Positions 8,006-61,207 of a DNA stretch of 64,000 nucleotides are shown piece by piece. The DNA is from Prevotella sp. (GTDB lineage Bacteria > Bacteroidota > Bacteroidia > Bacteroidales > Bacteroidaceae), in NCBI GenBank assembly GCA_017548275.1, contig JAFZAH010000037.1, positions 42,573 through 106,572 of the forward strand. The letters run 5' to 3'. The stretch's first letter is position 1. Each line of letters begins with the position of its first letter. The notes under the pieces are model-generated. The model was given only the letters and a program-made list of their open reading frames with translations. It made no database searches and had not been told where the DNA came from. The translations under genes were made by a program, and so were the position numbers.

Positions 8006-8161
8006 GGGAGTTATGAGTAGGAGTTAAGAATAGGAGTTATGAGAGGGAGTTATAATGAGCCATTACTATGCTACATGCAGAAAGAACATGTTTCAGAGGC
8101 ATTCGGCTCTTCTTAACTCCTCGTTTTAACTCCAATTGATAACTCCTCATTATAACTTCCT
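8006..8161. mobile_element. 156-bp MITE-like element with word-built inverted ends
   Basis: Left end (8006-8061) is four tandem ~14-nt units starting GGAGTTA and closes with GAGCC. Right end (8105-8161) is the inverted counterpart, again four units, closing with GGCTC. The 43-bp core has no ORF. The size and the four-unit ends match the element at 54285-54439. No target duplication was identified. Confidence 0.6.
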
Positions 8162-19379: not shown

Positions 19380-20630
19380 ATGGTAAAACGAGTATTGTTG
19401 ATGTTGATTTGTGTGTGGGGCGCGTGGGGCGCTCAGGCACAAATCGTTTACTCAAAGGTGATGGCGGGCGACTCCGTCACCAACATCTTGTTACAGATTC
19501 AAAGATTACCACAAGGCATCATTACTCATGTCGGACCGCTTCGCCGTGGCCACGCCTGCATCGACTGGTCGCTGCGGGGCGCGTTGACCGTGCCCCCCTC
19601 GGTTACTGACTTTGACGGAACGCCCTATCCGTTGTTAGCAGTTGGTTTCCATGCTTTTTATAAATGTGTGGGACTGACCGAGGTGACGCTACCGACTACG
19701 ATCCGCCTGCTGTGCTACGAGGCTTTTTACGGATGCGGCGCACTTACCGAGATTTATTTATCAGACAGTCTGTTGGTGGTTGGTGAACGCTCGTTCAGCG
19801 GATGCACGTCGCTCAAGCGCATCAACTTGCCGTGTGCTGTGCCACCACGATGCGATGCCGACGCCTTCGATACCACTACCTATCAAGAGGCACAAATTAT
19901 CGTGCCGAAGGGGTGCCGCGAGGCCTATTTGGCCACAGAGCCATGGAACCGCTTTGTGCAGATAGAAGAAGGGGATGAGACGGCAGCGCCAACGTCTAAT
20001 GCCGACTATGGCTATTGGCTGCGCGCGAAAGAAGCCTTAGAGACAACCTATGCCGAGGAACAATGGCGTATTCCGCAGCGTGTGGAAGAAGACGAGATGT
20101 GGACGGTCATGTTGGCGACAGACCGAGGGGCTCAACAAATGGTGTTCTCTACGCGTCGTGCGTTTGGTATGGCTGTGGTGGGGAGCGGCTTGGCTGATGA
20201 GTGCTGCATCGACACGACTTTCGCAGGAACGCTGGCACTGCCCGACAGCGTGACGGCACCCGACGGGCGTCGTTATATGGTGGGTGGCGTGGCTAAGAAT
20301 GCTTTCGCGGGATGCAGACGATTACAGCGGATAGATTTGCCCACACATCTGGAGTTTATCGACAATCTGGCTTTTTACGACTGCAAGTCGCTGAATCAAG
20401 TGGTCATTCCCGCCAATATGAAAGAAATCATGTCGTCTGCCTTCGCGGGGTGTGGCGGTTTGAACAGAGTGGAAACCTTGGCGCAGACACCGCCCGACCT
20501 CTTTGTTGATGCCTTCGACGACCGCACGTTCAACACGGCCACACTGGTCTTACCGGAAGGTGCGAGCGAAGCATATATGGCCACGGACGCATGGCCACTG
20601 TTCAAGTTTAGAATGTTGAATGTTGAATGA
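19380..20630 (+). CDS. Secreted BspA-like protein with duplicated module
   Basis: 416 aa. Signal peptide (MVKRVLLMLICVWGAWGAQAQ). Two copies of the module seen in the previous gene: LRR_5 repeats (LTEVTLPTTIRLLCYEAFYGCGALTEI; LQRIDLPTHLEFIDNLAFYDCKSLNQVVIP), each followed by the (T/V)PP...AFD..T(Y/F)..A.(I/L)(I/V)(V/L)P(K/E)G cap. The C-terminus FKFRM is followed by LNVE encoded by GTTGAATGTTGAA words, so an intergenic repeat supplies the last codons and the stop. Confidence 0.85.
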   Translation: MVKRVLLMLICVWGAWGAQAQIVYSKVMAGDSVTNILLQIQRLPQGIITHVGPLRRGHACIDWSLRGALTVPPSVTDFDGTPYPLLAVGFHAFYKCVGLTEVTLPTTIRLLCYEAFYGCGALTEIYLSDSLLVVGERSFSGCTSLKRINLPCAVPPRCDADAFDTTTYQEAQIIVPKGCREAYLATEPWNRFVQIEEGDETAAPTSNADYGYWLRAKEALETTYAEEQWRIPQRVEEDEMWTVMLATDRGAQQMVFSTRRAFGMAVVGSGLADECCIDTTFAGTLALPDSVTAPDGRRYMVGGVAKNAFAGCRRLQRIDLPTHLEFIDNLAFYDCKSLNQVVIPANMKEIMSSAFAGCGGLNRVETLAQTPPDLFVDAFDDRTFNTATLVLPEGASEAYMATDAWPLFKFRMLNVE

Positions 20631-20714
20631 TGAATTGAGAATTCGTTATTCAAAAATTCAACACTCAACATTCAACACTCAACATTCAACATTCAACACT
20701 CAACATTCAACACT
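20613..20714 (+). repeat. GTTGAAT/ATTCAACA inverted word repeat
   Basis: AATGTTGAATGTTGAATG on the left (inside the end of the LRR gene) faces a ~65-nt run of CATTCAACACTCAA on the right, with GAGAATTCG between. Inverted ends built of 8-nt words, no ORF inside. Confidence 0.65.
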
Positions 20715-36131: not shown

Positions 36132-36404
36132 CCCACCCTAACCCTCCCAAAGGGAGGGAATAGATTAGCGGAGTATCGTCTTTAACTTCTCTGACTTCCT
36201 TAACTTCTTTAACTTCATAAAATAAACAACGGATTGCACTGATTTTACGGATTTTTTATTCTTCCGTTAAATTCGTGCAATCCGTTGTTTTATAATCCCT
36301 TGAGTATATTCTCCAAGATATCCTACTCTCCGTAGAATATTAACTTTTGACTCTACGGAGTATTGGGAGGAAAGGATAGAAGCACTCTGCCCTTCATGCG
36401 TTAC
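36132..36404. repeat. Repeat module B and long 3'-flank duplicate
   Basis: Same start as module A (CCCACCCTAACCCTCCC...TTTAACTTC...AAAATA, to 36224), then two inverted repeats (36227-36291; 36328-36360). The whole ~275-bp stretch is repeated nearly base for base at 40172-40430, each time just after the stop codon of a BspA/dockerin gene. Confidence 0.85.
36227..36291. terminator. Terminator between metG and the BspA-like gene
   Basis: 13-bp perfect outer stem CAACGGATTGCAC/GTGCAATCCGTTG with an inner ACGGA/TCCGT stem, then GTTTTATA. Serves convergent transcripts. Confidence 0.6.
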
Positions 36405-48549: not shown

Positions 48550-51492
48550 TTACTTTTTAGCCTTTGTATCAACAGCCTTCTCTTCTTCTTCCATCTTGTT
48601 GCCCATGGTCAGGTAAGCCACAGGAGCAGCGATGAAGATAGACGACAATGTACCGAAGATGACACCGAGAATCATGGCGAATGCGAAACTACGGATGCTC
48701 ACACCACCGAAGATGAAGATACACAGCAACACGATCAATGTAGAAACAGAGGTGTTGATGGTACGTGCCAATGTCTGGTTCAGTGAGTTGTTGAACAAGG
48801 TGCGTTTGTCACGTTTCTTGTACAGACGCATATTCTCACGGATACGGTCGAAGACCACCACCTTATCGTTGATGGAATAACCCACCACGGTCAGGATAGC
48901 ACCGATGAACGTCTGGTCAACCTCGAGCGAGAACGGCAGGATGCCCCACAATGCTGAGAAGAAGCCCACAACGATAAGTGTATCGAGTGCCAGAGCCACG
49001 ATAGAACCGATAGAGAACGCCACATTGCGGAAACGCAACAGGATGTAGAGGAAGATAGCGATCAGAGCGATAATCACACTGATGATAGCCTTGTTGGTCA
49101 CATCGCTCGCGATGCTCGGACCCACCTTGGTGCTGCTGATGATTGAACCGCCCTCATGCAAATCCGGGTCTTTGAATGCCTCGACGTCTTTCTGTGTCAC
49201 CAGACCGGCTTTTGACAAAGCCTCGAAGAGTTTGGTCTCAGCCTGGTCATCGATGGTAGCGTCGCTCGACTCAATCTCCCAGTTGGTGGAAACGCGCACA
49301 TTGCCTTCCTCACCGAATGCAATCACCTGGGTATTTGCCTCCTGACCCTGCTTCTCGCCGTTGTCATAGACGAAGGTGCCAGCCAAAGCCTTACGCACAT
49401 CCTCCACGGGAACGGGTTTAGCCAGTTTCACCACATAGTTACGACCACCGGTGAAATCGATACTGCGGCTCAGACCGCGGATAGCGAAGAATCCGATAAA
49501 GATAAGAGCGATAACCGCCCAGATGGTGAAACTCTTCTTGTACATACCCATGAAGTTGAAGTGGGTATTCTGCAAGAGGTTCTTTGACAGCGGAGTGGTG
49601 AAAGTGAGGTTGAGCCACTTGTCGCGCTTCATGCGGTTCTCATAAACCAGACGGGTCAGGAACACTGCGGTGAAGAACGAGCAGCAGATACCGATGATCA
49701 AGGTGATAGCGAAACCGCGCACCGGACCCATACCGACCACTGCCAGAATGATACCTGTGATGATAGATGTCAAGTTGGAGTCGAAGATAGCGGAGAAGGC
49801 GTTGCTGTAACCGGCGGCAAGTGCCTGACGCACATTCTTGCCCGCTCGCATCTCCTCCTTCGTACGCTCATAGATAAGCACGTTGGCGTCAACAGCCATA
49901 CCGAGGGTCAACACGATACCGGCGATACCCGGCATGGTGAGCGCCGCCTGGAACGAGGCCATGATACCCATCGTGAAGAACAGGTTGAGCAACAGAGCGG
50001 TGTTGGCCACCATACCCGGAATGAATCCGTACATGAGCACCATGTAAATCATCAACAGCACGAAGGCGATGACGAACGAGATGATACCCTGTTTGATGGA
50101 CTGGGCACCAAGAGACGGACCCACCACCTCAGACTGCACGATTTTCACGGGAGCCTTCATACGACCTGATTTCAGGGTAGAAGCCAACTCCTTGGTATCT
50201 TGCAGTGTGAAATTACCGGTGATTTGTGAACGACCGCCGGTGATTTCTTGGTTCACATTAGGTGCACTGTACACGAGGTTGTCGAGCACGATAGCCACGG
50301 GACGGCCGATGTTCTTCTTGGTCAGGTTGGCCCAAGCACGGGCGCCTTCCTCGTTCATCTCCATCGATACCTCGGGGCTGTTCTTGAACTGGTCGAAACC
50401 GTCCTTAGCGTCGGTCACCACGTCACCTTCCATGGCGGGTTTCAGACCGCGCAGGCAGTACAACTCATAGATATGCTTGCTATTGACACCGTCGGCGGGT
50501 TTGGCACCCCAGAACAATTTCACGTCGGCACCCAGTTGGCGCAATGCTGCGGGCGAGAAGATGATGGAGTCAATGGCTGCGGTGTCCACGGCGTTGGCAT
50601 AACCCACCACGCAGTAGTCATCGCTACGCATTTGCAGCATCTCCTGGAATTTCTTCTTACCGTCCTTCTTGGCAGCGATGGCAGCCATACTGTTGGCTTT
50701 CGTCGTGTCGGTGGCAAGTGTGTCGACCTCAGCCTTTTCGCCACTGTCGCCTGCGTCGTATTGTTGGCCGATTTGTGCCAGCACGGGAGCAATCTCTTTC
50801 GAGGAATAAACCTCCCAGAACTCCAGATTGGCACTGCTCTCCAACAGTTTACGCATACGGTTCACGTCTTTCACACCCGGCATCTCGACCATGATACGTC
50901 CCTGTCCGCCTTCCAGTTGCTGGATATTGGGCTGTACGACACCGAACTGGTCGATACGGTTGGCGATGACGTTTCGTGAGTCGGCAACGGTCTCCTCCAG
51001 ATTGGTACGAATCATTGCCTCCACTTCCTCATCGCTGCTATTACTTTTCACATCGGGCAATTTGGATGTGGCAAATACTGCGGCCAGACTACGGTCGGGG
51101 GCTATTTCCTTGTAATTCTTGATAAACAGGTCGATAAAGTCACCCTGTGTCTTCTTCTCTTCTTCCCGAGCGGCTTTCATCGCTTTGATGAACGTCTCGT
51201 CCTTGGTGTTACCCAGATTCTCCAAGAGGTCGGGTACAGACACCTCCAGCACCACGTTCATACCGCCTTTCAGGTCAAGACCCAGACCCACCTGTGTCTC
51301 CAGACAGTCGCGATACGACTTGCCGAAGTACTTTACGGAATCCAGATAATCTTGCTTGGCGATAGGATCTGCGATTTTGGCAGCCTCGCTCTCGAAATGA
51401 CTCGTCGCCACGGTGAACGACAAGTAGAAGATGCAGACGAGCGTCAATAAGACCGCTACAGTACTGACAATTACTTTTTCAAAAGTTTGCAT
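48550..51492 (-). CDS. secDF: Protein translocase SecD-SecF fusion
   Basis: 980 aa. SecD half: first membrane helix, DLKGGMNVVLEVSV, periplasmic P1 domain with GVVQPNIQQLEGGQGRIMVEMPGV, then helices with GIAGIVLTLGMAVDANVLIYERTKEE. SecF half from about 640: IDFTGGRNYVVK, the second helix bundle with GAILTVVGYSINDKVVVFDRIREN. The fused form is normal for Bacteroidetes. It uses the proton gradient to help pull exported proteins through SecYEG. P1 has a longer insert than usual (residues ~230-330). Confidence 0.97.
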   Translation of the reverse strand: MQTFEKVIVSTVAVLLTLVCIFYLSFTVATSHFESEAAKIADPIAKQDYLDSVKYFGKSYRDCLETQVGLGLDLKGGMNVVLEVSVPDLLENLGNTKDETFIKAMKAAREEEKKTQGDFIDLFIKNYKEIAPDRSLAAVFATSKLPDVKSNSSDEEVEAMIRTNLEETVADSRNVIANRIDQFGVVQPNIQQLEGGQGRIMVEMPGVKDVNRMRKLLESSANLEFWEVYSSKEIAPVLAQIGQQYDAGDSGEKAEVDTLATDTTKANSMAAIAAKKDGKKKFQEMLQMRSDDYCVVGYANAVDTAAIDSIIFSPAALRQLGADVKLFWGAKPADGVNSKHIYELYCLRGLKPAMEGDVVTDAKDGFDQFKNSPEVSMEMNEEGARAWANLTKKNIGRPVAIVLDNLVYSAPNVNQEITGGRSQITGNFTLQDTKELASTLKSGRMKAPVKIVQSEVVGPSLGAQSIKQGIISFVIAFVLLMIYMVLMYGFIPGMVANTALLLNLFFTMGIMASFQAALTMPGIAGIVLTLGMAVDANVLIYERTKEEMRAGKNVRQALAAGYSNAFSAIFDSNLTSIITGIILAVVGMGPVRGFAITLIIGICCSFFTAVFLTRLVYENRMKRDKWLNLTFTTPLSKNLLQNTHFNFMGMYKKSFTIWAVIALIFIGFFAIRGLSRSIDFTGGRNYVVKLAKPVPVEDVRKALAGTFVYDNGEKQGQEANTQVIAFGEEGNVRVSTNWEIESSDATIDDQAETKLFEALSKAGLVTQKDVEAFKDPDLHEGGSIISSTKVGPSIASDVTNKAIISVIIALIAIFLYILLRFRNVAFSIGSIVALALDTLIVVGFFSALWGILPFSLEVDQTFIGAILTVVGYSINDKVVVFDRIRENMRLYKKRDKRTLFNNSLNQTLARTINTSVSTLIVLLCIFIFGGVSIRSFAFAMILGVIFGTLSSIFIAAPVAYLTMGNKMEEEEKAVDTKAKK

Positions 51493-51550
51493 TTTAGTTA
51501 AATGATGATTATTTAATTATTTGTTATTTGCCCATTTACGAAATAGCGTG

Positions 51551-51558
51551 CAAAGTTA
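51551..51558 (-). promoter_or_regulatory. -7 box of secDF
   Basis: TAACTTTG on the minus strand, about 59 nt before the start. Confidence 0.55.
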
Positions 51559-51606
51559 GTGATTTTTTCACACTCTGAAAAATTTTACCGCTTAAATATT
51601 CATTTT

Positions 51607-52809
51607 TTAGCGATTTAGGCGCTTTTTGAGCGTGCAAATGACCGGATAATGGTCAGAGAGTGACACATTTCGGTCAACTTGACAAGTATAGCAACGCCAG
51701 TCTTTCGAGCAGAAAATATGGTCGATACGGAAGTACATCCAGTTGTGGTCGTAAGTGAAACCGGGACCATTTCCGCCTGCCACGAAACAGTCGGTCAAAC
51801 CCTTTCCAATGGTGTGATGGGCATACGACAGGGGATGGTCGTTGAAATCACCGCACACGATGACGCTCTTCACACCGCTGCGACGGATATAGTCGGCCAC
51901 AGCATCAGCCTGAGGGGCGCGCAAGCGGTCGGCACGCTCCACAGCGGCCAGAAACTCCCAACGGGTCTTCCTTTTTTTCTTCTTTTTCTTGCTGCTTTTA
52001 TTTTTCTTTTTGCTGTTGTTCTTTTTATCTTTTTGGTCTTTCTTTACAGCCTTGTCACTCTTTTCCTTTATGTCGTTTGCTACATTTTCCGTACCCTCCT
52101 TTGTCTGCTCTTTTCCCGTTACGATTTCGCCAAAATCCAATTTGTCGTCGGACGAGAGGCCGTATGTCTCCAAATGGTTGTTCACCACCAGCACCGTGTC
52201 GCCATTGATAAGCACCAGCGAGGCGTCGCTCACATTGCCCGCAGAAGGATACTCAATGCGCTCGGTCGAAAGGATGGGCCATTTGCTGTATAGCGCAACG
52301 CCATTGCTCTGGTTCATCGTGCGCGACACGTAGGGATAACGCTTGGCCATGAGTTCATCCACTTTGATGTTGCGCACCTCCGACAACCCCGCCTCTTGCA
52401 GACAGATGATGTCGGCGTCGGCGTCGAGCAGATAATTCACTGTAGGATTGTCGCGACGGGTATGAAACCGCCAACCCTCAAACAAATGGACGTTGAAGGA
52501 GATGACCTTGATGGAACCTTCGGGAGGCTCGGACACCAAATTTAAGGGTATATATGTGCGCACGGGCGCAATACAAAAGACGATGCCCAACAGGGGGATA
52601 AGCAGATAACGGCGGCGCAGAATCAGCCAGACGGGAATAAACACGACATTGGCGGCAAGCACCAAAGGGAACGCCAGCCCCGATGCTGCCCATAAAGCAT
52701 GGTCAACGGGACTGACATATCCGGAATAACCCGTCAGCAACATCAAGACCACCACCAAAATATTCGCGGCAGCCAAGATGCGGCAAAGCCATTTCTTGAT
52801 TATCGTCAT
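51607..52809 (-). CDS. Membrane endonuclease/exonuclease/phosphatase-fold protein
   Basis: 400 aa. Three N-terminal membrane helices (about 12-95), then an EEP domain: ISFNVHLFEGW, DIICLQEAG, VNNHLETYG, VCGDFNDHPLSYAHH, SDHYPVICTLKK, with all catalytic positions present. Between LETYGLSSDDKLDFG and WEFLAAVERADRLR a ~55-residue Lys-rich low-complexity insert (KKNNSKKKNKSSKKKKKKRK) interrupts the fold. Substrate unknown (nucleic acid or phospholipid). Its ATG overlaps the rhomboid stop (ATGA), so the two are coupled. Confidence 0.87.
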   Translation of the reverse strand: MTIIKKWLCRILAAANILVVVLMLLTGYSGYVSPVDHALWAASGLAFPLVLAANVVFIPVWLILRRRYLLIPLLGIVFCIAPVRTYIPLNLVSEPPEGSIKVISFNVHLFEGWRFHTRRDNPTVNYLLDADADIICLQEAGLSEVRNIKVDELMAKRYPYVSRTMNQSNGVALYSKWPILSTERIEYPSAGNVSDASLVLINGDTVLVVNNHLETYGLSSDDKLDFGEIVTGKEQTKEGTENVANDIKEKSDKAVKKDQKDKKNNSKKKNKSSKKKKKKRKTRWEFLAAVERADRLRAPQADAVADYIRRSGVKSVIVCGDFNDHPLSYAHHTIGKGLTDCFVAGGNGPGFTYDHNWMYFRIDHIFCSKDWRCYTCQVDRNVSLSDHYPVICTLKKRLNR

Positions 52810-53744
52810 CGTTTGTTTTTGCTGGCATCAAAGAGGGTCTTCTTCTCCTCTTGTGTCAGGCTGTCATAGCCGCTTTTGCGTATCTTGTCCAAAATCACAT
52901 CTATCTCGTCCTGTTCTCGTTTCTTGCGCGCATTATATTGCTGGTCGGTCTCCCGCCGGGGCTGTTGTGGTTGCTGTTGCGACGAAGTGCGCCCGTTGTC
53001 GGCCGGTCGGTGACTGCGCTGTTCCCATGAGTTGCGCATACGGTCGAAGAACTGCTGTCCACGGTTGCGACCGTAACCGCTGCCCACCTCGGGATGGCGA
53101 CGCCAATAACGGATAAGGATGAAGCCGAAGAGCATACCGCCCAAATGCGCGAAATGCGCCACATTGTCATTACCGCCGGAACCTAAGGCCGAGAACAGTT
53201 CGATGGCCACATAGAACATCACGAACCATTTCGCCTTGATAGGGATAGGCAGGGGGAAGATGAAGATGCGCTCTTCGGGGAAAATCATACCAAACGCCAA
53301 CAAGATGGCATAGATGGCACCCGAGGCGCCCACAGTAGTCCAACCGTTGAGGGCAACAGCCAACTCTTCTTTCATGGAAAAAACATCGGAGAGGCTGAGA
53401 TGATAACCTATGCACAACGAGGTCAACTGTGCAATCTCCTGTATCAGACCAGCACCGACACCACACAAAATGTAATAAAAAAGGAATTTTTTAGGACCCC
53501 AGACATTCTCCACCACACAACCGAACATCCACAGGGCAAACATATTGAAGAAAATATGCTCGATACCGCCATGCATGAACATGTAAGTGAAGAACTGATA
53601 AAGATGGAAATCGGATGCCATGAAAAAGTGCAATCCGAAGATATTGTTCAAATCTATACCCTTGCCTTTCAACACCAGATAAGCGATGAAGGCAATCGCA
53701 TTGATAATGAGCAGGTTTTTGGTGACTGTTGGTATCTTGCGCAT
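52806..53744 (-). CDS. Rhomboid family intramembrane serine protease
   Basis: 312 aa. Six or seven helices; MHGGIEHIFFNMFALWMFG, the active serine in GASGAIYA (Ser141) and the active histidine in AHLGG (His200). The C-terminal ~90 residues are a cytosolic Arg/Gln-rich tail (RGQQFFDRMRNSWEQRSHRP...QQQPQQPRRE). Cleaves membrane-protein substrates within the bilayer; substrate unknown. First gene of a two-gene unit with the EEP-fold protein. Confidence 0.93.
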   Translation of the reverse strand: MRKIPTVTKNLLIINAIAFIAYLVLKGKGIDLNNIFGLHFFMASDFHLYQFFTYMFMHGGIEHIFFNMFALWMFGCVVENVWGPKKFLFYYILCGVGAGLIQEIAQLTSLCIGYHLSLSDVFSMKEELAVALNGWTTVGASGAIYAILLAFGMIFPEERIFIFPLPIPIKAKWFVMFYVAIELFSALGSGGNDNVAHFAHLGGMLFGFILIRYWRRHPEVGSGYGRNRGQQFFDRMRNSWEQRSHRPADNGRTSSQQQPQQPRRETDQQYNARKKREQDEIDVILDKIRKSGYDSLTQEEKKTLFDASKNKR

Positions 53745-53867
53745 AGTCGTTACAATGGTTTAGTCCGTTTATGGGCGCAAAAATACGAAAAATATCTGTT
53801 ATGCGGCACAAAATCAGCCTTATAGACACTTTTTTTCATTATTTTCTTCACTTTTTTTTATTTTTTG

Positions 53868-53898
53868 TTTGATTTATCAAATGATTAACCTATATTTG
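53868..53898 (+). promoter_or_regulatory. Consensus promoter of the HU gene
   Basis: TTTG, 19 nt, TATATTTG, 53 nt before the ATG. Confidence 0.78.
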
Positions 53899-53951
53899 TC
53901 GCAAATTTTGAAACTTATTTCACATTTTTGTTAAATTTATCATAGAAAATT

Positions 53952-54221
53952 ATGAACAAGACACAATTAATCGACAAAATCGCCGCTGGTGCAGGACTCA
54001 CCAAGGTGGATGCAAAAAAGGCTCTTGAGGCTACAGTTAACGCTATCAAAGACGCTCTGAAAGAGGGCGACAAAGTGCAACTCATTGGCTTCGGCACATT
54101 CAGCGTGAACGAGCGTCCCGCTCGCGAGGGCATCAATCCCCGCTCAAAGGAGAAGATCACCATCGCTGCTAAGAAAGTGGCTAAATTTAAGGCCGGCGCA
54201 GAACTGGAGAAGGCTCTCTAA
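53952..54221 (+). CDS. hup: HU family DNA-binding protein
   Basis: 89 aa. MNKTQLIDKIAAGAGLTKVDAKKALEA opening helices, GFGTFSVNERPAREGINPRSKEKI with the DNA-intercalating Pro in the beta arm, and the C-terminal FKAGAELEKAL helix. Histone-like dimer that bends DNA. Single gene with promoter and terminator tightly around it. Confidence 0.97.
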   Translation: MNKTQLIDKIAAGAGLTKVDAKKALEATVNAIKDALKEGDKVQLIGFGTFSVNERPAREGINPRSKEKITIAAKKVAKFKAGAELEKAL

Positions 54222-54244
54222 TTGATTTTGTAAGAAAATTTCAT

Positions 54245-54280
54245 AAAACGGCATCCTTTCGAGGATGCCGTTATTTTATT
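54245..54280 (+). terminator. Terminator of the HU gene
   Basis: AACGGCATCC/GGATGCCGTT stem, TTTCGA loop, then ATTTTATT. Confidence 0.83.
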
Positions 54281-54284
54281 ATTT

Positions 54285-54439
54285 GGAGTGCAGGAGTTTA
54301 GGAGTTTCAGGACTTCAGACATATGCCCGCCTCTTGGGAAAGACCATCAATGAATTATTATCTGAACCCCTAATCAATTCGTTCCGTGAGTTACATAACT
54401 ATTGTCTGAACTCCTGAAACTCCTAAACTCCCGAACTCC
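54285..54439. mobile_element. 155-bp ORF-less element with 41-bp inverted ends
   Basis: Ends 54285-54325 and 54399-54439 are inverted repeats matching at 35 of 41 positions, each made of four GGAGTT(T/C)(C)A words closing in CAGACA. The inner ~25 nt before the right end (GTTCCGTGAGTTACATAAC) match the S23-encoding element at the same place, so this looks like its internally deleted form. Lies just after the kduD stop. Confidence 0.75.
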
Positions 54440-54445
54440 TAAACT

Positions 54446-55237
54446 TCATGGCTGTTTCCCAATATACGCCAGGATGCCGCCATCTACATAGAGGATGTGA
54501 CCGTTGACCGCATCGGAGGCATGTGAGGCGAGGAACACGGCGGGACCGCCCAACTCCTCGGGATTGAGCCAACGGCCGGCAGGGGTCTTGGCACAGATAA
54601 ACGAGTCGAACGGATGACGGCTGCCGTCGGGTTGACGCTCGCGCAGGGGTGCCGTCTGGGGAGTGGCGATATAACCAGGACCTATGGCATTGCACTGGAT
54701 GTTATACCCGCCATACTCCGAGCAGATATTACGCGTGAGCATCTTCAACCCGCCCTTGGCGGCGGCGTAGGCGCTGACGGTCTCGCGGCCCAGTTCGCTC
54801 ATCATCGAACAGATATTGATGATTTTGCCCTCGCGACGCTCCATCATCTCGGGGATGACGGCCTTGGTCATGATAAACGGCCCCACCAGGTCGATGTCTA
54901 TCACCTGCTGAAACTCCTCACGCTTCATCTCGTGCATGGGGATGCGTTTGATGATGCCGGCGTTGTTAACGAGGATGTCGATATGTCCCAGTTGTTGGCG
55001 GATGTCGTCCACCATCTTCTGCACCTCGGTCTCATTGGTCACGTCGCACAAATAACCGTGAGCCTCGATGCCTAAGGAACGATAGTCGGCTAACGCCTTG
55101 TCCATGTGTTCCTGTCCGCGACAGTTAAAAGCAATCTTCGCACCGGCCTTTGCCAGTGCCTCTGCGATGGCGAAGCCGATGCCATAAGCCGCACCCGTCA
55201 CTAACGCCACTTTACCTTCTAATGAAAAGATGTTCAT
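54446..55237 (-). CDS. kduD: SDR oxidoreductase, probable 2-deoxy-D-gluconate 3-dehydrogenase
   Basis: 263 aa. Rossmann loop TGAAYGIGFAIAEAL (about 14-28), NNAGI near 93, and the YAAAK catalytic pair near 158. The classical SDR length and its place downstream of kduI on the same strand support KduD (3-deoxy-D-glycero-2,5-hexodiulosonate reduction in uronate breakdown); a gluconate 5-dehydrogenase (IdnO-like) is the main alternative. A 549-bp inverted-repeat element separates it from kduI. Confidence 0.85.
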   Translation of the reverse strand: MNIFSLEGKVALVTGAAYGIGFAIAEALAKAGAKIAFNCRGQEHMDKALADYRSLGIEAHGYLCDVTNETEVQKMVDDIRQQLGHIDILVNNAGIIKRIPMHEMKREEFQQVIDIDLVGPFIMTKAVIPEMMERREGKIINICSMMSELGRETVSAYAAAKGGLKMLTRNICSEYGGYNIQCNAIGPGYIATPQTAPLRERQPDGSRHPFDSFICAKTPAGRWLNPEELGGPAVFLASHASDAVNGHILYVDGGILAYIGKQP

Positions 55238-55253
55238 GTTCTTTGTTTTTGGG

Positions 55254-55802
55254 GGAGTTCAGGAGTTCAGTAGTTTCAGTAGTTCAGACAATAGCCCCGT
55301 TTTAGTTTAATTAGTCTTGAATACCTGTATTATTTATGATACCTCTGCTGTATGCTGTTAACAACTTGCTTGTTTCTTCCAAAAGTATATATAACGAAGT
55401 ATATTGCGATTCCGTAATAAACAGCAAATCCTTAGAGAGAATGATATAATTACGACATTCCGCCAAACTACCTTCAGAAATATTAAAGAAGCGGAGTTTA
55501 TCTGCTTTACTCAGTTTTTTGTATCCTTCGGCTATATTGGCTTCTAATGATATTGCTGCTCTACGAAATTGGGAAGTCAGCCCAAAACGTTCTTCTTCGG
55601 GAAAGGTCTTGGTCATATTGTAAACCATTATTGTAAACTCATGGGCCTTCTGCCAAGCAATTATTTTTTCAAAAGAAAAAGTTGGTGTCATAAAAGTTGT
55701 CTTAACTCCTAAATCAATACATGTCTTAACTCCTAATCTATTAGTTTCGTGAGTTACATAACTATTGTCTGAACTCCTGAAACTACTGAACTACCGAACT
55801 CC
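55254..55802 (-). mobile_element. 549-bp element with 41-bp inverted ends carrying an S23-like gene
   Basis: Left end 55254-55294 and right end 55762-55802 are inverted repeats matching at 38 of 41 positions, each of four 8-9-nt GGAGTTCA/GTAGTTCA words closing in GACAATAG. One ORF (55311-55691) fills the middle. It starts 17 nt from the kduD ATG and ends 7 nt from the kduI stop. No target duplication and no transposase were found. Confidence 0.78.
55311..55691 (-). CDS. Four-helix-bundle protein (S23/23S-rRNA-intervening-sequence type)
   Basis: 126 aa. SFEKIIAWQKAHEFTIMVYNMTKTFPEEERFGLTSQFRRAAISLEANIAEGYKK is the signature of the S23 family, and the rest (GSLAECRNYIILSKDLLFI...LLEETSKLLTAYSR) completes four helices. 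In Leptospira and others this family is encoded in intervening sequences of 23S rRNA that have inverted-repeat ends; the Avd protein of diversity-generating retroelements has the same fold. Here the gene sits inside inverted repeats between kduI and kduD. Biochemical role unknown; nucleic-acid binding is the usual suggestion. Confidence 0.9.
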   Translation of the reverse strand: MTPTFSFEKIIAWQKAHEFTIMVYNMTKTFPEEERFGLTSQFRRAAISLEANIAEGYKKLSKADKLRFFNISEGSLAECRNYIILSKDLLFITESQYTSLYILLEETSKLLTAYSRGIINNTGIQD

Positions 55803-55809
55803 TATATTT

Positions 55810-56652
55810 CTATCTCAAATCCGTAATCTTTGAAAAATCCTGGTCTCCGTAATCGAGGTTTTCGCCGCCCATACCCCAGATAAAGGTGTAGTTATGGGTA
55901 GCGGCGGCGCTGTGGATGCTCCATTCGGGAGAGAGCACAGCCTGATCGCCACGCATCCAGATGTGGCGCGTCTCATTGACCTCGCCCATGAAATGACAGA
56001 CGGCCTGCTCTTCAGGCACCTCGAAATAGAAATATGCCTCCATGCGACGACTGTGCACGTGGGCGGGCATCGTGTTCCACACCGAACCGGGAGCCAGTTC
56101 CGTCATACCCATCTGTAACTGGCATGTAGGCAACACCTGATTGACCAGCATCTTGTTGATGTCGCGCTCGTTGCTCATCTCCAGACTGCCCATGTGTGCC
56201 ACCACGGCATCCTTCTTCGTCACCTTCTTACAGGGGTATTCTTTATGGGCTGTGGTGCTGTTGAAATAGAACTTGGCGGGATTCTTCGCATCCTTGGTCT
56301 CAAAAACCACATCGCGGTCGCCACGACTGATATAAAGAGCCTCTTTGTAACCGAGCGCGAACACCTCATCGCCGACGCGTACGATACCCTCGCCGCCCAC
56401 ATTGAAGATGCCCACCTCGCGACGTGTTGTGAAGAACGGTGCGCGCAGCGGGTCGATGGCTTCAAGTGTCAATGCCTCTTTCATGGGCATGGCGCCACCC
56501 ACCACCATACGGTCATACATCGAATACACCATGTTCACCTCATCGGCGGCAAACACTTTCTCAATCAGGAAATCACGGCGGATACGGGCCGTGTCATACT
56601 GCTTCGCATCCTCGGGGTGCGCAGCATAACGTACTTCATAATTAGTCTTCAT
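55810..56652 (-). CDS. kduI: 5-dehydro-4-deoxy-D-glucuronate isomerase
   Basis: 280 aa from 56652 (MKTNYEVRYAAHPEDAKQYDTARIR); the frame runs to 56757 but passes the promoter box. Two cupin halves; the zinc site is HVHSRRMEAYFYFE (about 195-210) with a later His. TAHKEYPCKK and GLGDQ-like GDQAVLSPEWSIHSAAATHNYTFIWGMGGEN at the end are family marks. Isomerises the unsaturated-uronate product to DKII in pectin, hyaluronan or heparin breakdown. First gene of the kduI-(S23 element)-kduD unit. Confidence 0.96.
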   Translation of the reverse strand: MKTNYEVRYAAHPEDAKQYDTARIRRDFLIEKVFAADEVNMVYSMYDRMVVGGAMPMKEALTLEAIDPLRAPFFTTRREVGIFNVGGEGIVRVGDEVFALGYKEALYISRGDRDVVFETKDAKNPAKFYFNSTTAHKEYPCKKVTKKDAVVAHMGSLEMSNERDINKMLVNQVLPTCQLQMGMTELAPGSVWNTMPAHVHSRRMEAYFYFEVPEEQAVCHFMGEVNETRHIWMRGDQAVLSPEWSIHSAAATHNYTFIWGMGGENLDYGDQDFSKITDLR

Positions 56653-56698
56653 ACGTGTGTTTTTTCTTTTTGATTTGTTGTTCTGTGATTTGTTTGTG

Positions 56699-56706
56699 CA
56701 AAAGTA
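56699..56706 (-). promoter_or_regulatory. -7 box of kduI (decides the start)
   Basis: TACTTTTG on the minus strand, 47 nt before the start at 56652. Confidence 0.55.
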
Positions 56707-56956
56707 CATAATTTTGGAGAGAATGGACATCTTTTTTACCAAAAAGTCTTTTCGCAAACTTTAGAAATTGTTAAACAGGCCAAACCCTTTGGGCAAAATC
56801 GATATGTTATTAGCAGCAAACACACACTTGCGCCAAACAATATATCCTATGTTCTTATGTACTTATGTCTAAAACACATATCCTTTGTTCTTATGTCGAA
56901 AATACATGTACTTTTGTCCTTATGACGAAAAATTTTCTTTTTCCCTGTAGTTTTTG

Positions 56957-56964
56957 TAACTTTG
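56957..56964 (+). promoter_or_regulatory. -7 box of the ECF sigma gene
   Basis: TAACTTTG followed by C, 40 nt before the ATG. Confidence 0.6.
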
Positions 56965-57003
56965 CTGCGTCTAAAGTGTGAAAATCAATCGGAATAGACA
57001 ACA

Positions 57004-57483
57004 ATGACAACTTTGGAAAAACAGTTTGCGCAAACTATTGCAGAACACAAAAGCACCATCTACACGGTGTGCTACATGTTCTCGAAAGATGCCGACGAGG
57101 TGAACGACCTCTTCCAGGAGGTGCTGGTCAACATCTGGAAAGGATATGACGACTTCGAGCATCGCAGTGACATCAAGACGTGGATCTACCGCATCGCACT
57201 CAACACCTGCATCTCTATCGACAGGAAGAAACGGCGGCACGCCACCACACGGCTGTCCATGGACATCAACCTCTTTGAAGACCGCGACGAAGACACGCGA
57301 CAAGTGGACATGCTCCACAAGCGCATCTCACGTCTGCAACCTTTCGACAGGGCTATCGTCCTGCTGTGGCTCGAAAACCTCTCGTACGATGAAATCGGAC
57401 AAATAGTCGGTATCTCTACCAAAAACGTCAGCGTGCGTCTGTTCCGTATCAGAGAACAACTCAAACAAATGTCAAACGATTAA
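57004..57483 (+). CDS. ECF-type RNA polymerase sigma factor
   Basis: 159 aa. Region 2 (TVCYMFSKDADEVNDLFQEVLVNIWKGYDDFE...WIYRIALNTCISIDRKK) and region 4 HTH (LSYDEIGQIVGISTKNVSVRLFRIREQLK). The typical ECF length. Followed after 12 nt by a membrane protein that probably controls it. Confidence 0.95.
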   Translation: MTTLEKQFAQTIAEHKSTIYTVCYMFSKDADEVNDLFQEVLVNIWKGYDDFEHRSDIKTWIYRIALNTCISIDRKKRRHATTRLSMDINLFEDRDEDTRQVDMLHKRISRLQPFDRAIVLLWLENLSYDEIGQIVGISTKNVSVRLFRIREQLKQMSND

Positions 57484-57495
57484 ACTTCACACATT

Positions 57496-58095
57496 ATGAA
57501 TAACAACGATTTTGAACTGGAGAATATGCGCGAGCAAATGGCCGCGCTAAAAAAGAAACTGGATAAGCAGGAGATTGTCAACGACCACATTATCCGCCAG
57601 TCGATGACGAAAGCGGCCGGCAGCATCAACCGCACATACTTCTGGGTAATCATTCTCGGCATACTTATGATTCCCTATGGCTATTGGGTCTTCGTTATGT
57701 TAGCGGGCTTCTCCATCGCCTTCTGGATTGGTACAAGCATCTTTATGCTGGTATGTGCAGGTGCCACCTATTACAACAAGAGGAATCTCAATGACGCGAA
57801 CCTGATGTCTAACAACCTCGTAGAGACACGTCGCCGCATTGCACGCGCCAAGAAGTTCGACAACGACTGGCTTCTCTTCGGCATCCCCGCCCTCCTGGTC
57901 TGGCTGGCCTGGTTCTTCTACGAGATTTACAAACTCAACCACGATTTGTTCTACCAACCCATGTTCTGGGGCGGCTGTGTCGGAGGTGTCATCGGTGCTG
58001 TCATCGGGCTCTCCATCCATTTCAAAAACCAACGTCAGTACAAGGAAATCATCGACCAGATAGACGACATGACGGAAAACGAACTGACAGAATAA
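57496..58095 (+). CDS. Four-helix membrane protein partnered with the sigma factor
   Basis: 199 aa. N-terminal coiled coil (ELENMREQMAALKKKLDKQ), then two pairs of membrane helices (about 54-95 and 128-175), and an acidic C-terminus. No zinc-binding anti-sigma motif or FecR domain, but the position right after an ECF sigma gene is where Bacteroidetes encode membrane regulators. Anti-sigma function is an inference. Confidence 0.75.
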   Translation: MNNNDFELENMREQMAALKKKLDKQEIVNDHIIRQSMTKAAGSINRTYFWVIILGILMIPYGYWVFVMLAGFSIAFWIGTSIFMLVCAGATYYNKRNLNDANLMSNNLVETRRRIARAKKFDNDWLLFGIPALLVWLAWFFYEIYKLNHDLFYQPMFWGGCVGGVIGAVIGLSIHFKNQRQYKEIIDQIDDMTENELTE

Positions 58096-58170
58096 TGGCA
58101 CCCAAAAACCGAGTTTTATCTATTTTTTTGCATCGCTTTGCACCACTAATCCCCTATATTATCACAAAAG

Positions 58171-58206
58171 ATTCCTCCATATCGTGCTGATATGGAGGAT
58201 TTTTTG
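58171..58206 (+). terminator. Terminator of the sigma operon
   Basis: TCCTCCATAT/ATATGGAGGA stem, then T6. A TAACTTTA box for the next gene begins at 58207. Confidence 0.8.
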
Positions 58207-58222
58207 TAACTTTACAACCGAA

Positions 58223-59473
58223 ATGAAAAATAATAATACTTATCTCGAATCGAAACCGCGTTACGAGATTCTCGACGGGTTGCGCGGTGTGGCTGCCATA
58301 CTCGTTGTAGCCTACCACCTGTTTGAAACTTACTTTCACGGAGGTCCCGGCCAGCCGATAAACCACGGTTATCTGGCTGTTGATTTCTTTTTCGTGCTTT
58401 CGGGTTTTGTCATCGGCTATGCCTACGACGACCGCTGGGACAAAATGTCAACGTGGAGTTTCTTTAAGCGCCGTCTCATCCGTCTGCACCCGATGGTTAT
58501 CTTCGGCACGCTGTTTGGAGCATTGATATTCTATTTCGGCAGTTGTGACGAGTTCCCGCTAATTAACGACACGCCATGGTGGATGGTGCTGCTGGTGATG
58601 TTTTGGTGTTTCACGATGATTCCCCTGCCTAATACGATGGACATCCGAGGCTGGGCTGAGACCAATCCGCTGAACGGCCCTGCTTGGTCGCTGCAATGGG
58701 AGTATATCGCCAACATTCTCTATGCTCTCGTTATTCGCAGGTTTTCGAAGGTGGCATTGAGTGTTTGTGTAGTCGTTTTCGCCGTGCTGACCATTATACT
58801 CTGCTTGAACATCGATGTGACCGGATTCCTTGAAGAGCGCAACTGGGCATCATATACCGTTGTGGGCGGTTGGAGCACCACCCCCGACCAGTTACAGGTG
58901 GGACTCACCCGTCTGCTCTATCCCTTCTTCTGCGGACTGCTTATCTCGCGAATGGGTAAACTCATTAAGATGAAGGCAGGCTTTTGGTGGTGTTCGCTGA
59001 TGATCATTGTGCTGTTCTGCATGCCATGGATGGGACTTGGCACCGAAGGCGACAGCCGCTGGACAAACGGACTCTACGAAGCCATTTGTATCCTCGTCTT
59101 CTTCCCGCTGATTGTAGTGATAGGCGCTGGCAGCAGCGTCATAGGTTCGAAGTCATCGGCCATCAACAAATTCCTCGGCGAGATTAGTTATCCCATCTAT
59201 ATCACCCACTATCCGCTCATTTACATGCAGATGTCATGGGCTGACAGCCATAAAGAAGCCCCACTCGGCACCCACATCTTCGTATCCGTCTGCATCTTCA
59301 TGCTTGCCATCCTTCTGGCTTACGGAGCCTACAAACTCTATGACCTGCCTGTTCGTGAGTGGCTGAAACATAAACTCTTCAAGCCGGCGATTAAGCGAGA
59401 GGAGAGTGATGCGCGCATCAGTTCTTCAGAGCGTGAGCAGGCTCGACCAGAAGTCAAACCTTCCGCAAAATGA
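58223..59473 (+). CDS. Acyltransferase family 3 membrane protein
   Basis: 416 aa from 58223; the longer frame begins inside the terminator. DGLRGVAAILVVAYHLFE is the hallmark N-terminal helix with the catalytic-type His, and FFFVLSGFVIGY, PAWSLQWEY and FLGEISYPIYITHYPLI are the other Acyl_transf_3 blocks, over about ten membrane helices. O-acetylates cell-surface sugars or other periplasmic targets; substrate unknown. Stop overlaps the next start (ATGA). Confidence 0.92.
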   Translation: MKNNNTYLESKPRYEILDGLRGVAAILVVAYHLFETYFHGGPGQPINHGYLAVDFFFVLSGFVIGYAYDDRWDKMSTWSFFKRRLIRLHPMVIFGTLFGALIFYFGSCDEFPLINDTPWWMVLLVMFWCFTMIPLPNTMDIRGWAETNPLNGPAWSLQWEYIANILYALVIRRFSKVALSVCVVVFAVLTIILCLNIDVTGFLEERNWASYTVVGGWSTTPDQLQVGLTRLLYPFFCGLLISRMGKLIKMKAGFWWCSLMIIVLFCMPWMGLGTEGDSRWTNGLYEAICILVFFPLIVVIGAGSSVIGSKSSAINKFLGEISYPIYITHYPLIYMQMSWADSHKEAPLGTHIFVSVCIFMLAILLAYGAYKLYDLPVREWLKHKLFKPAIKREESDARISSSEREQARPEVKPSAK

Positions 59474-59856
59474 GAATAGACCACATAGCACTATATTGCA
59501 TGGATTTGGAAGGGATGAAGGAGTTCTTCATCCGCTATTTCCATGGCGTATCGAATGAAATGTATCACAATCCCAAGACCGGGCTGAAAACATATATCCT
59601 GAGTTTTGTGGATTCTGGTGCAAGGCTGGAACTGATGACAAGGCCAGAAGTAGTGGATGAGAAAGCGAACATCTATCGTCAGGGCTTCATTCACTTGTCC
59701 TTTGCCGTCGGATCTAAAGAAAAGGTTGACTGCCTTACAAAACTTCTGAATGAAGATGGCTATCAAGTGTTAAGCGGTCCACGCATCACTGGCGACGGCT
59801 ATTACGAAAGTTGCATCCTCGGCCCCGAGGGGATTCTGATAGAGTTGACGGTATAA
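59470..59856 (+). CDS. Glyoxalase/VOC superfamily protein
   Basis: 128 aa. MRIDHIALYCMDLEGMKEFFIRYF opens the first beta-alpha-beta-beta-beta unit; FIHLSFAVGSKEKVDCLTKLL opens the second, and GPEGILIELTV ends it. Candidate metal ligands are His5, Glu55 (ARLELM), His in HLSF, Glu in IELTV. Coupled to the acyltransferase by a 4-nt overlap. Lyase, dioxygenase or resistance role cannot be separated. Confidence 0.9.
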   Translation: MRIDHIALYCMDLEGMKEFFIRYFHGVSNEMYHNPKTGLKTYILSFVDSGARLELMTRPEVVDEKANIYRQGFIHLSFAVGSKEKVDCLTKLLNEDGYQVLSGPRITGDGYYESCILGPEGILIELTV

Positions 59857-59884
59857 CATATCTATGCGTTATGGGATTTTTTTA

Positions 59885-59892
59885 TAACTTTG
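59885..59892 (+). promoter_or_regulatory. -7 box before the DUF1593 gene
   Basis: TAACTTTG followed by C, 28 nt before the ATG at 59921. Confidence 0.55.
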
Positions 59893-59920
59893 CGGCAACA
59901 AACTACAAAGACATGGATTG

Positions 59921-61207
59921 ATGAAACAAAAATGGACAATCATATCACTGTTGCTTGGGGTATTTACGATGATGGCGAATGCGCAGGAAACAGCAAAACA
60001 AAAACCAAGAGTACTGATTAGTACAGACATTGGCGGTACTGACCCCGACGACAACCAGTCGGTGGCGCATCTGCTGATGTATAGCAATGAGTTTGACCTC
60101 GAAGGACTGGTGTCCTCACCATCGTTTGGCGACGGGAATACCAGCGAGATTTTCCGCATGATAGATGTCTATGAGCAGGACCTGCCTGCGTTGAGACGCC
60201 ACATCAAAGGACTGATGAAACCCAAGGCGCTGAGAAAACTGGTAAAGCAGGGACGCATGAGCGAGGCTCCCGCCTGCGGCTATGGCGAGCCTACGGAAGG
60301 TTCACGGTGGATTGTCCGTCAGGCGCGTAAAAAGGATGCCCGTCCGCTGTATGTTTTGGTATGGGGTTGTTTGGAGGATGTGGCACAGGCGTTGCACGAT
60401 GCGCCCGATATCGCTCCCAGGTTGCGCGTCCACTGGATTGGCGGTCCCAACAAGAAATGGGGCGTCAATGCCTACTGTTATATCATCGAGCACTTCCCCG
60501 ACCTGTGGATGATAGAGAACAACACCACCTATCGCGGCTTCATCTACGACTCGAAGAACAAGGACGAATGGAATGCGGGCTATTTTGACACACACATCAA
60601 GGATGCAGGTCATCTGGGGCGCGACTTCGCAGCCTACTACAAAGGCAATCCCAAGTTGGGCGACACGCCCTCGCTGCTCTACGTGATGAGAGGCAACCCT
60701 GCGAACCCGGAGCAACTGTCGTGGGCAGGTCGTTTCGTCCGTTGCAGCCGTACACCCCGCACTGTCTTTTATGGTGCCACTACTTCGAAAGACACGGCAC
60801 AGATATGCGGCATCATCGAGTGGCAACTGAGAGGTCCCAAGCGTGATGACATCGCCGTCGACTCTGCATGCATCACACTTGACATCCGCAAGCAGCAGTG
60901 GAAAGGTTATTACAAGGGTAACGGTCTCTATGTATTGCGCCACTCCACCTACTACACAGGCACGTTACCCTATACCATCACATCGACCATCGAAGGATTC
61001 ACACCAATCGACGGTGAGATAACCATCCAAAACACATGGGAAGTAAAACCACACGACACTGACTACAAAGTGGGGGCACATTGGTGGACGGACAGTTATG
61101 CATCTGCCGATTATTGGCACGATTGTGCCGGTGCTGATACCCAATACAAGGTCCGTCAGGAAATCATGAGAGACTGGGCCCGCCGCTGGGCGTATTTGAG
61201 AAAATGA
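59921..61207 (+). CDS. Secreted DUF1593 nucleoside-hydrolase-like protein
   Basis: 428 aa from ATG 59921 (TTG one codon earlier also possible). Signal peptide (MKQKWTIISLLLGVFTMMANAQ). VLISTDIGGTDPDDNQSVAHLL is the DUF1593 N-terminal Asp cluster, similar to the calcium site of inosine-uridine nucleoside hydrolases; VWGCLEDVAQAL and HWIGGPNKKWG follow, and a ~90-residue C-terminal beta domain (from about ITLDIRKQQWKG) completes it. Proposed substrate: glycosides; unproven. Confidence 0.88.
   Translation: MKQKWTIISLLLGVFTMMANAQETAKQKPRVLISTDIGGTDPDDNQSVAHLLMYSNEFDLEGLVSSPSFGDGNTSEIFRMIDVYEQDLPALRRHIKGLMKPKALRKLVKQGRMSEAPACGYGEPTEGSRWIVRQARKKDARPLYVLVWGCLEDVAQALHDAPDIAPRLRVHWIGGPNKKWGVNAYCYIIEHFPDLWMIENNTTYRGFIYDSKNKDEWNAGYFDTHIKDAGHLGRDFAAYYKGNPKLGDTPSLLYVMRGNPANPEQLSWAGRFVRCSRTPRTVFYGATTSKDTAQICGIIEWQLRGPKRDDIAVDSACITLDIRKQQWKGYYKGNGLYVLRHSTYYTGTLPYTITSTIEGFTPIDGEITIQNTWEVKPHDTDYKVGAHWWTDSYASADYWHDCAGADTQYKVRQEIMRDWARRWAYLRK

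Follow-up and report, generated by a model that had tools for sequence, protein, structure and literature searches.

An S23 gene between word-built inverted repeats at a Prevotella kduI-kduD junction: a possible operon-dwelling relative of rRNA intervening sequences

What is a gene of the S23 (23S_rRNA_IVP) four-helix-bundle family, the family carried by intervening sequences (IVSs) of ribosomal RNA, doing between the protein genes kduI and kduD, and what are the long inverted repeats that enclose it? In the 64,000-nt stretch of Prevotella DNA analysed here (the window, whose positions are used throughout), the gene is intact, lies on the reverse strand at 55311..55691 and encodes 126 aa that match PF05635 (23S_rRNA_IVP) at 122.6 bits (cut-off 33.8) and TIGR02436 at 113.9 bits (cut-off 24). 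Its two 41-nt arms, at 55254-55294 and 55762-55802, are 467 nt apart and complementary at 38 of 41 positions (93%). Read in gene sense, the 5′ arm (55762..55802, reverse strand) is GGAGTTCG-GTAGTTCA-GTAGTTTCA-GGAGTTCA-GACAATAG, that is, four words of 8-9 nt followed by the 8-nt tail GACAATAG, and the 3′ arm (55254..55294, reverse strand) is its reverse complement, predicted to form the other side of an RNA stalk. The element splits a pair of cistrons. Upstream, the stop codon of kduI (55810..56655, reverse strand; NF002091, 417.9 bits) is separated from the element by 7 nt, and downstream, 16 nt separate the element from the ATG of a kduD-like SDR dehydrogenase gene (54446..55237, reverse strand), which adjoins kduI in 29 of 30 kduI loci; its top NCBIfam match is NF005488 (gluconate 5-dehydrogenase) and it scores under the cut-off of the kduD model. 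An earlier note, made from the sequence of this locus, had described 41-bp inverted repeats, each of four tandem 8-9-nt words, around an intact S23 gene with gaps of 7 and 17 nt on its two sides, and all of this is borne out apart from the second gap.

The same note had proposed that a transcript of the element would fold into a 41-bp stalk, and the predicted fold agrees: the stalk is present in the centroid, and the element as RNA reaches -155.1 kcal/mol against -115.5 ± 5.4 kcal/mol for 100 shuffles (z -7.4), none of which is as low. Among the 49 ORFs of the window, flank pairing scores of at least 14 are found for S23 and kduD only, the latter sitting between the S23 element and a second element. 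Inverted repeats matching at 21 of 24 positions number four in the window and 13 in the 138-kb contig, not all of them word-built, and none is found in letter-shuffled versions of either sequence. The second element, a gene-less sister absent from the earlier note, lies downstream of kduD at 54282..54442 (reverse strand). It is built of the same word, and its arms (54282-54321 and 54403-54442) pair at 36 of 40 positions. Over 87 nt it is 89% identical to the S23 element's 5′ end, and it looks like an internal-deletion copy of that element. Two other gene-less inverted repeats are present in the window, one built of the word GAATGTT (20605..20714; 26 of 30 positions paired, also recovered in the 21-of-24 scan) and one of GGAGTTA-like words (8009..8157; 24 of 30, under the 21-of-24 threshold). 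A AACAACGGATTGCACTGATTTTACGG-like inverted repeat at 36224-36290 (21 of 24) is not of the 7-8-nt word type.

Unlike an rRNA IVS, the element lies between protein genes, kduI and kduD, and is not inserted in an rRNA gene; an Rfam scan of window positions 50001-60000 gave no match at gathering score. The same kind of scan over 20 of 80 wider S23 loci, mostly those with odd or missing neighbours, gave one match, a tRNA (in L168). S23 genes are co-oriented with both of their neighbours in 62 of 72 genus loci, 28 of 30 phylum loci and 52 of 70 all-phyla loci, neighbours being taken as the longest ORFs and loci without readable neighbours (3 of 75 and 10 of 80) being left out, and the corresponding figure for ORFs of the window is 23 of 48. 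Such co-orientation is what would be expected of an element that acts at the RNA level or depends on transcription.

The window's genome (3.22 Mb, 87% complete) contains six TIGR02436 matches, and all six of these S23 genes are enclosed by inverted arms of tandem 7-10-nt words, with own pairing scores of 15 to 33.5. The words differ among the six copies, being of GGAGTTCA, GGTCGTTT, GAATTTG/GAATTAC, GAAGATAAA, GGAGCAAG and GGTTTGA types, which rules out a transposon or cassette whose ends would share a single sequence. Across 75 genus loci, of which 35 came from S23 searches and 40 were hand-picked among the matches listed, own-flank pairing reached 14 in 60 and 18 in 51, compared with 71 and 37 of 1104 mismatched locus pairs. 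At a score of at least 14, own arms paired in 12 of 30 loci of a phylum sample against 13 of 584 mismatched pairs, and in 41 of 75 loci of an all-phyla sample (80 named loci from many phyla, five dropped for short flanks) against 26 of 1475. Mismatched loci thus attain this score in 2-6% of cases overall, a proportion raised by the inclusion of some same-word pairs. The best word period is mostly 7 or 8, and there are clear paired-arm cases in Planctomycetota (L167), Chloroflexota (L157), Verrucomicrobiota (L182) and Cyanobacteria (L197). The expectation that S23 genes elsewhere would carry such repeats is therefore often right, in the genus above all, but not general: pairing at this score is absent from 15 of 75 genus, 18 of 30 phylum and 34 of 75 all-phyla loci. 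In these sets L024 was dropped as a second copy of L001, the L073 region, which has two S23 genes, contributed the first of them, and L132 and L203, which have identical S23 proteins, are possibly one locus counted twice.

The arms have a polarity that is tied to the direction of the gene. Among arms scoring at least 16, G exceeds C in the 5′ arm in 48 of 54 cases in the genus, 9 of 10 in the phylum and 33 of 34 in the all-phyla set. Moreover, the S23 clade tracks the word: over 95 elements, protein identity correlates with word similarity on the sense strand with r 0.50 (maximum 0.08 in 500 permutations), compared with -0.09 on the antisense strand. No related flanking gene is found in 73 of the 110 pairs in which both protein and word are similar (each at least 0.5), so the same combination of gene and word also occurs at unrelated sites. 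The order of the words along the arms gave a weaker signal, the true order being better than the permutation mean in 52 of 77 cases, worse in 14 and equal in 11, in a comparison biased by the arms having been cut by the same alignment; in the same weak and biased test the true order was strictly best in 32 cases, with at most 25 expected, and some permutation was strictly better in 20. Enrichment of an inner tail motif is seen in the genus (29 of 108 tail windows, 9.5 expected); the phylum (3 of 20, 1.9 expected) and all-phyla sets (8 of 68, 7.4 expected) show none, and the motif was dropped as a family-wide feature.

Copies of the arm unit are scattered through the host genome. The element's 5′ end, taken as a query of 123 nt, is matched 48 times there, and 46 of the matches end by query position 62, within one arm unit or shortly beyond it. 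At least 37 places hold an arm unit besides the element and its sister (rows within 300 nt merged by eye), a lower bound, the scoring having covered 40 of 68 first-look candidates. Of the 28 loci inspected, one is the window itself and the other 27 represent 24 distinct arms, mostly solo, with an inverted partner scoring at least 12 within 320 nt downstream in one of the 24. GGAGTTNNGGAGTTNNG, with at most one mismatch, is matched 233 times in the genome, compared with 15 times for the pattern reversed. In a wider census, gene-less clusters of a genome's own S23 words occur at 12.9 per Mb, compared with 4.7 per Mb in three other genomes and 2.4 per Mb for the reversed words (16 words; rank test p 2.5e-4), where words and genomes are not independent and 4 of 20 elements, having no usable word, were dropped. 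These figures come from automatic word cores; hand-written cores had contaminated the reversed control, since GGAGTT read in reverse lies within the TTTGAGG word of this genome. GGAGTT itself is common in each of the four census genomes, and the automatic cores of L002, L003 and L004, three of the six words of their genome, gave 0-1 clusters in it.

Arrays of period 7 or 8 are likewise more frequent in the sampled genomes that are rich in S23. Four such genomes contain 195 arrays (77, 42, 38 and 38) in 1.60 Mb, or 95-167 per Mb, whereas six genomes with no S23 among the genus matches listed contain three in 0.30 Mb, one in each of three genomes; both groups are small and hand-picked, and each genome was sampled in part. 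Shuffled sequence yields no arrays at periods 7 and 8, and arrays of periods 10, 11 and 13 are much rarer than those of period 7/8. When sdhB loci were binned by S23 count, all three bins contained 0 arrays and were thus uninformative. A large CRISPR survey lists 23S rRNA IVP among its domains (PMC10910872), and our guess is that word arrays beside S23 genes may be mistaken for CRISPR-like arrays.

Is the element a newcomer at its site? The best 30 kduI loci of a genus search provide 29 kduI-kduD junctions, own genome included, L045 being left out as it lacks kduD. Four of the junctions, the window's among them, carry S23, in 15 the gap is at most 51 nt, and the remaining 10 have wider gaps but no S23; in 7 of these 10 a hairpin scores above all 60 shuffles. 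The gaps of L046 and L048 contain gene-less G+C-rich repeats (CCCACCCCAACC... and GGGCCAATCGGGCCGACC...) that are unlike the GGAGTT family, and both fold as hairpins above all shuffles. At the sdhA-sdhB junction, the 30 sdhB loci of a phylum sample include one with S23, in the window's own genome, and 29 without, of which 26 have gaps of at most 72 nt and three are longer; one of the 30 junctions (L244) has an odd 922-nt gap. Empty sites in relatives, the comparison that the earlier note had put forward, are thus found at both junctions. The filled and empty junctions compared here are strongly diverged from one another, beyond the level at which the target-site duplication of a MITE or IS would stand out. 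S23 adjoins sdhB in 16 of 75 genus loci and in 4 of 80 named loci (three Flavobacteriia and one Bacteroidales). In a tree of 178 S23 proteins (7 of 185 loci left out, including L153 and the short L010), two changes suffice for the 19 sdh-sited rows and likewise two for the 6 kdu-sited rows, with 16 sdh rows in one clade at 89% SH-aLRT, a value that is not starred and comes from a short alignment and a quick search. Because the S23 genes of each junction form nearly one clade, the junction copies seem to have been mostly inherited in place, and often lost, rather than newly inserted. Of the proposal that this is an IVS-like mobile unit in a protein operon, the likeness to an IVS is retained, and "mobile" appears too simple for copies that mostly descend in place.

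Different matched words nevertheless occupy one and the same site. The 20 sdh-sited elements were sorted by eye into five word classes, and own pairing reaches 12 in 19 of them (the exception is L190), compared with 5 of 304 different-class pairs; in 18 of the 20, own pairing beats every different-class cross pair. If the sdh copies descend from one insertion, both arms would have changed their word together, in place.

The S23 protein itself is under purifying selection, as judged from coding sequences: pN/pS is below 0.5 in 61 of 62 S23 pairs with more than 70% identity, and the remaining pair is identical. Its solved relatives, found by sequence only, are PDB 2gsc and 2rld, with five chains each. 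The net charge is 0 for the window S23 and has medians of 0, 1 and 3 in the genus, phylum and all-phyla sets; given the values for the window and the genus, nucleic-acid binding is not obvious from charge. One sdh-sited copy, L010, has an internal stop, up to which its sequence was used, and several extra word blocks upstream, the appearance of a decaying copy with expanding arrays. Viral carriage of S23 was considered and dropped, a scan of viral contigs with the window S23 having returned four pattern matches, none of them a relative.

The account that we favour, to which as a whole we assign a probability of roughly 0.55, is that the element is an operon-dwelling relative of the rRNA IVS, organised like a REP/RAYT system with S23 in the place of the transposase. 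Two inverted copies of a genome-specific unit, four words of ~8 nt plus GACAATAG, bracket the S23 gene, and the element would be co-transcribed with kduI and kduD. The two units would pair in the mRNA as the 41-bp stalk with S23 in the loop, and RNase III, as in rRNA IVSs, would cut this stalk, so that the S23 message would be released and the cistrons would come apart. We infer that S23 most likely binds the word unit, either as RNA in the stalk or as a hairpin of DNA, and it may help the unit to be kept, corrected between the arms and copied elsewhere as solo units. Because related bacteria show the same arrangement with other matching words, the S23 protein and the short repeats appear to form one system. 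New here is a word that each copy has for itself, that agrees between the two arms, that varies among lineages at a single site and that has multiplied in the host genome.

Several of these observations could be read differently. The word arrays might be self-propagating slippage products and S23 a passenger between two of them, with template switching at a replication hairpin carrying changes over from arm to arm and so maintaining complementarity; this would fit arms that vary among lineages at a single site while still matching each other, gene-less arm copies that far outnumber gene-bearing ones and arrays that vary in word number (L018, L010 and L186). Against this reading, which we regard as unlikely, stand the purifying selection on S23, the agreement of S23 clade with word, the tie of arm polarity to the direction of the gene and the rarity of arrays in S23-less samples. 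An unmodified IVS descendant, in which selection concerns only a stalk that shields or excises and S23 has no relation to the words or solo copies, would account for the co-orientation and operon position and for the strong predicted stalk, and RNase III excision of an rRNA IVS has been published (PMC4990558). It leaves unexplained the arm units present at no fewer than 37 further places and the link, at the level of genomes, of S23 with word arrays, and we judge it distinctly unlikely.

Movement in trans of a MITE- or REP-like element, by a RAYT (Y1 transposase) or another transposase and with S23 as cargo, has in its favour the likeness of the solo copies and inverted pairs to REPs and REPINs and the presence in the genome of one Y1_Tnp (RAYT-like) gene, its sole match (contig C36:118993-119499, L383). 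That gene, however, has an inverted GCCCTGAAAGGGCAAAAGC repeat on its two sides, a palindrome of its own (GCCCTGAAAGGGC) that is unlike the words, and the six S23 copies carry different words where a shared transposon end would be expected, so that this origin is improbable. Short inverted pairs like GCCCTGAAAGGGCAAAAGC also occur at C23:137835 and C36:122450 and are REPIN-like. An ordinary operon gene accompanied by attenuator or mRNA-stabilising hairpins would fit an intergenic hairpin in an apparent operon, but hardly the patchy presence at the same junction, the arms on both sides of the gene or the copy-specific words. The S23-less junctions already weigh against this explanation, to which we give very little credence.

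The favoured account, an operon-dwelling IVS relative organised like REP/RAYT, can be set against several known systems. Our literature search, which lay largely outside subscription papers and preprints, found no paper tying operon S23 genes to word-built repeats. The STRR of cyanobacteria are heptameric tandem repeats. Heptameric repeats have been described as GGGAATC/GGGGATT in Xanthomonas and Nostoc and as TAACTGA in Beggiatoaceae, two Xanthomonas being reported to have 70 and 75 inverted pairs (PMC4692102), and the main text of PMC4692102 and of PMC4679880 contains neither "S23" nor "four helix". Such heptamers resemble the present repeats as mostly intergenic 7-nt tandem arrays, S23-rich genomes having arrays of period 7/8, and differ in that the window element's own word is of 8 nt. 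In RAYT/REP/REPIN systems, a gene is framed by inverted short repeats of which solo or paired gene-less copies are dispersed in the same genome; RAYT is a Y1 HuH transposase and its repeat a short tagged palindrome. The S23 gene is similarly framed by inverted copies of a genome-dispersed repeat (48 matches), but the protein between the arms is an S23 four-helix protein rather than a Y1 HuH transposase, and the unit is four tandem words and a tail rather than a tagged palindrome. The window S23 also has a weak match to bAvd (PF22296, 35.1 bits, under the 40-bit cut-off), and PF05635 is described as resembling Avd of diversity-generating retroelements (PMC10053308). Unlike those elements, however, the window contig (C37) has no reverse transcriptase, the sole RVT_1 match of the genome being on another contig (C12:11049-11531, L384).

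The closest parallel remains the rRNA IVS, and the comparison drawn in the earlier note is a strong one. The IVS of Coxiella has a 28-bp terminal inverted repeat and tandem heptamers ahead of S23p, the first of which has an RNase III site at its start (PMC4990558), and it seems to share the word-built 5′ end; 23S_rRNA_IVP is also reported in 16S and 23S rRNA insertions of CPR bacteria (PMC11270868). Common to the rRNA IVS and the present element are the S23p/IVP family, terminal inverted repeats as a stem, heptamers at the 5′ end in Coxiella, and sporadic presence with empty sites. They differ in that the ORF here is under purifying selection, whereas that of Coxiella is described as decaying (PMC4990558), and in that the word units here also occur as solo copies. 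More tentatively, and as a proposal that we think will rather prove wrong than right, S23 (IVP) may be the missing partner of bacterial short-word repeats, a protein that keeps and spreads its own 7-9-nt array, corrects both arms and can change the word. The tie between gene and word, which rests on a copy-specific word with matched arms, variable among lineages at an orthologous site and amplified in S23 genomes, joins the question of S23/IVP function to that of the origin of heptameric bacterial repeats. If the proposal is true, these would be products of a repeat-propagating system without a transposase or reverse transcriptase, and the rRNA IVSs would be a special case of it.
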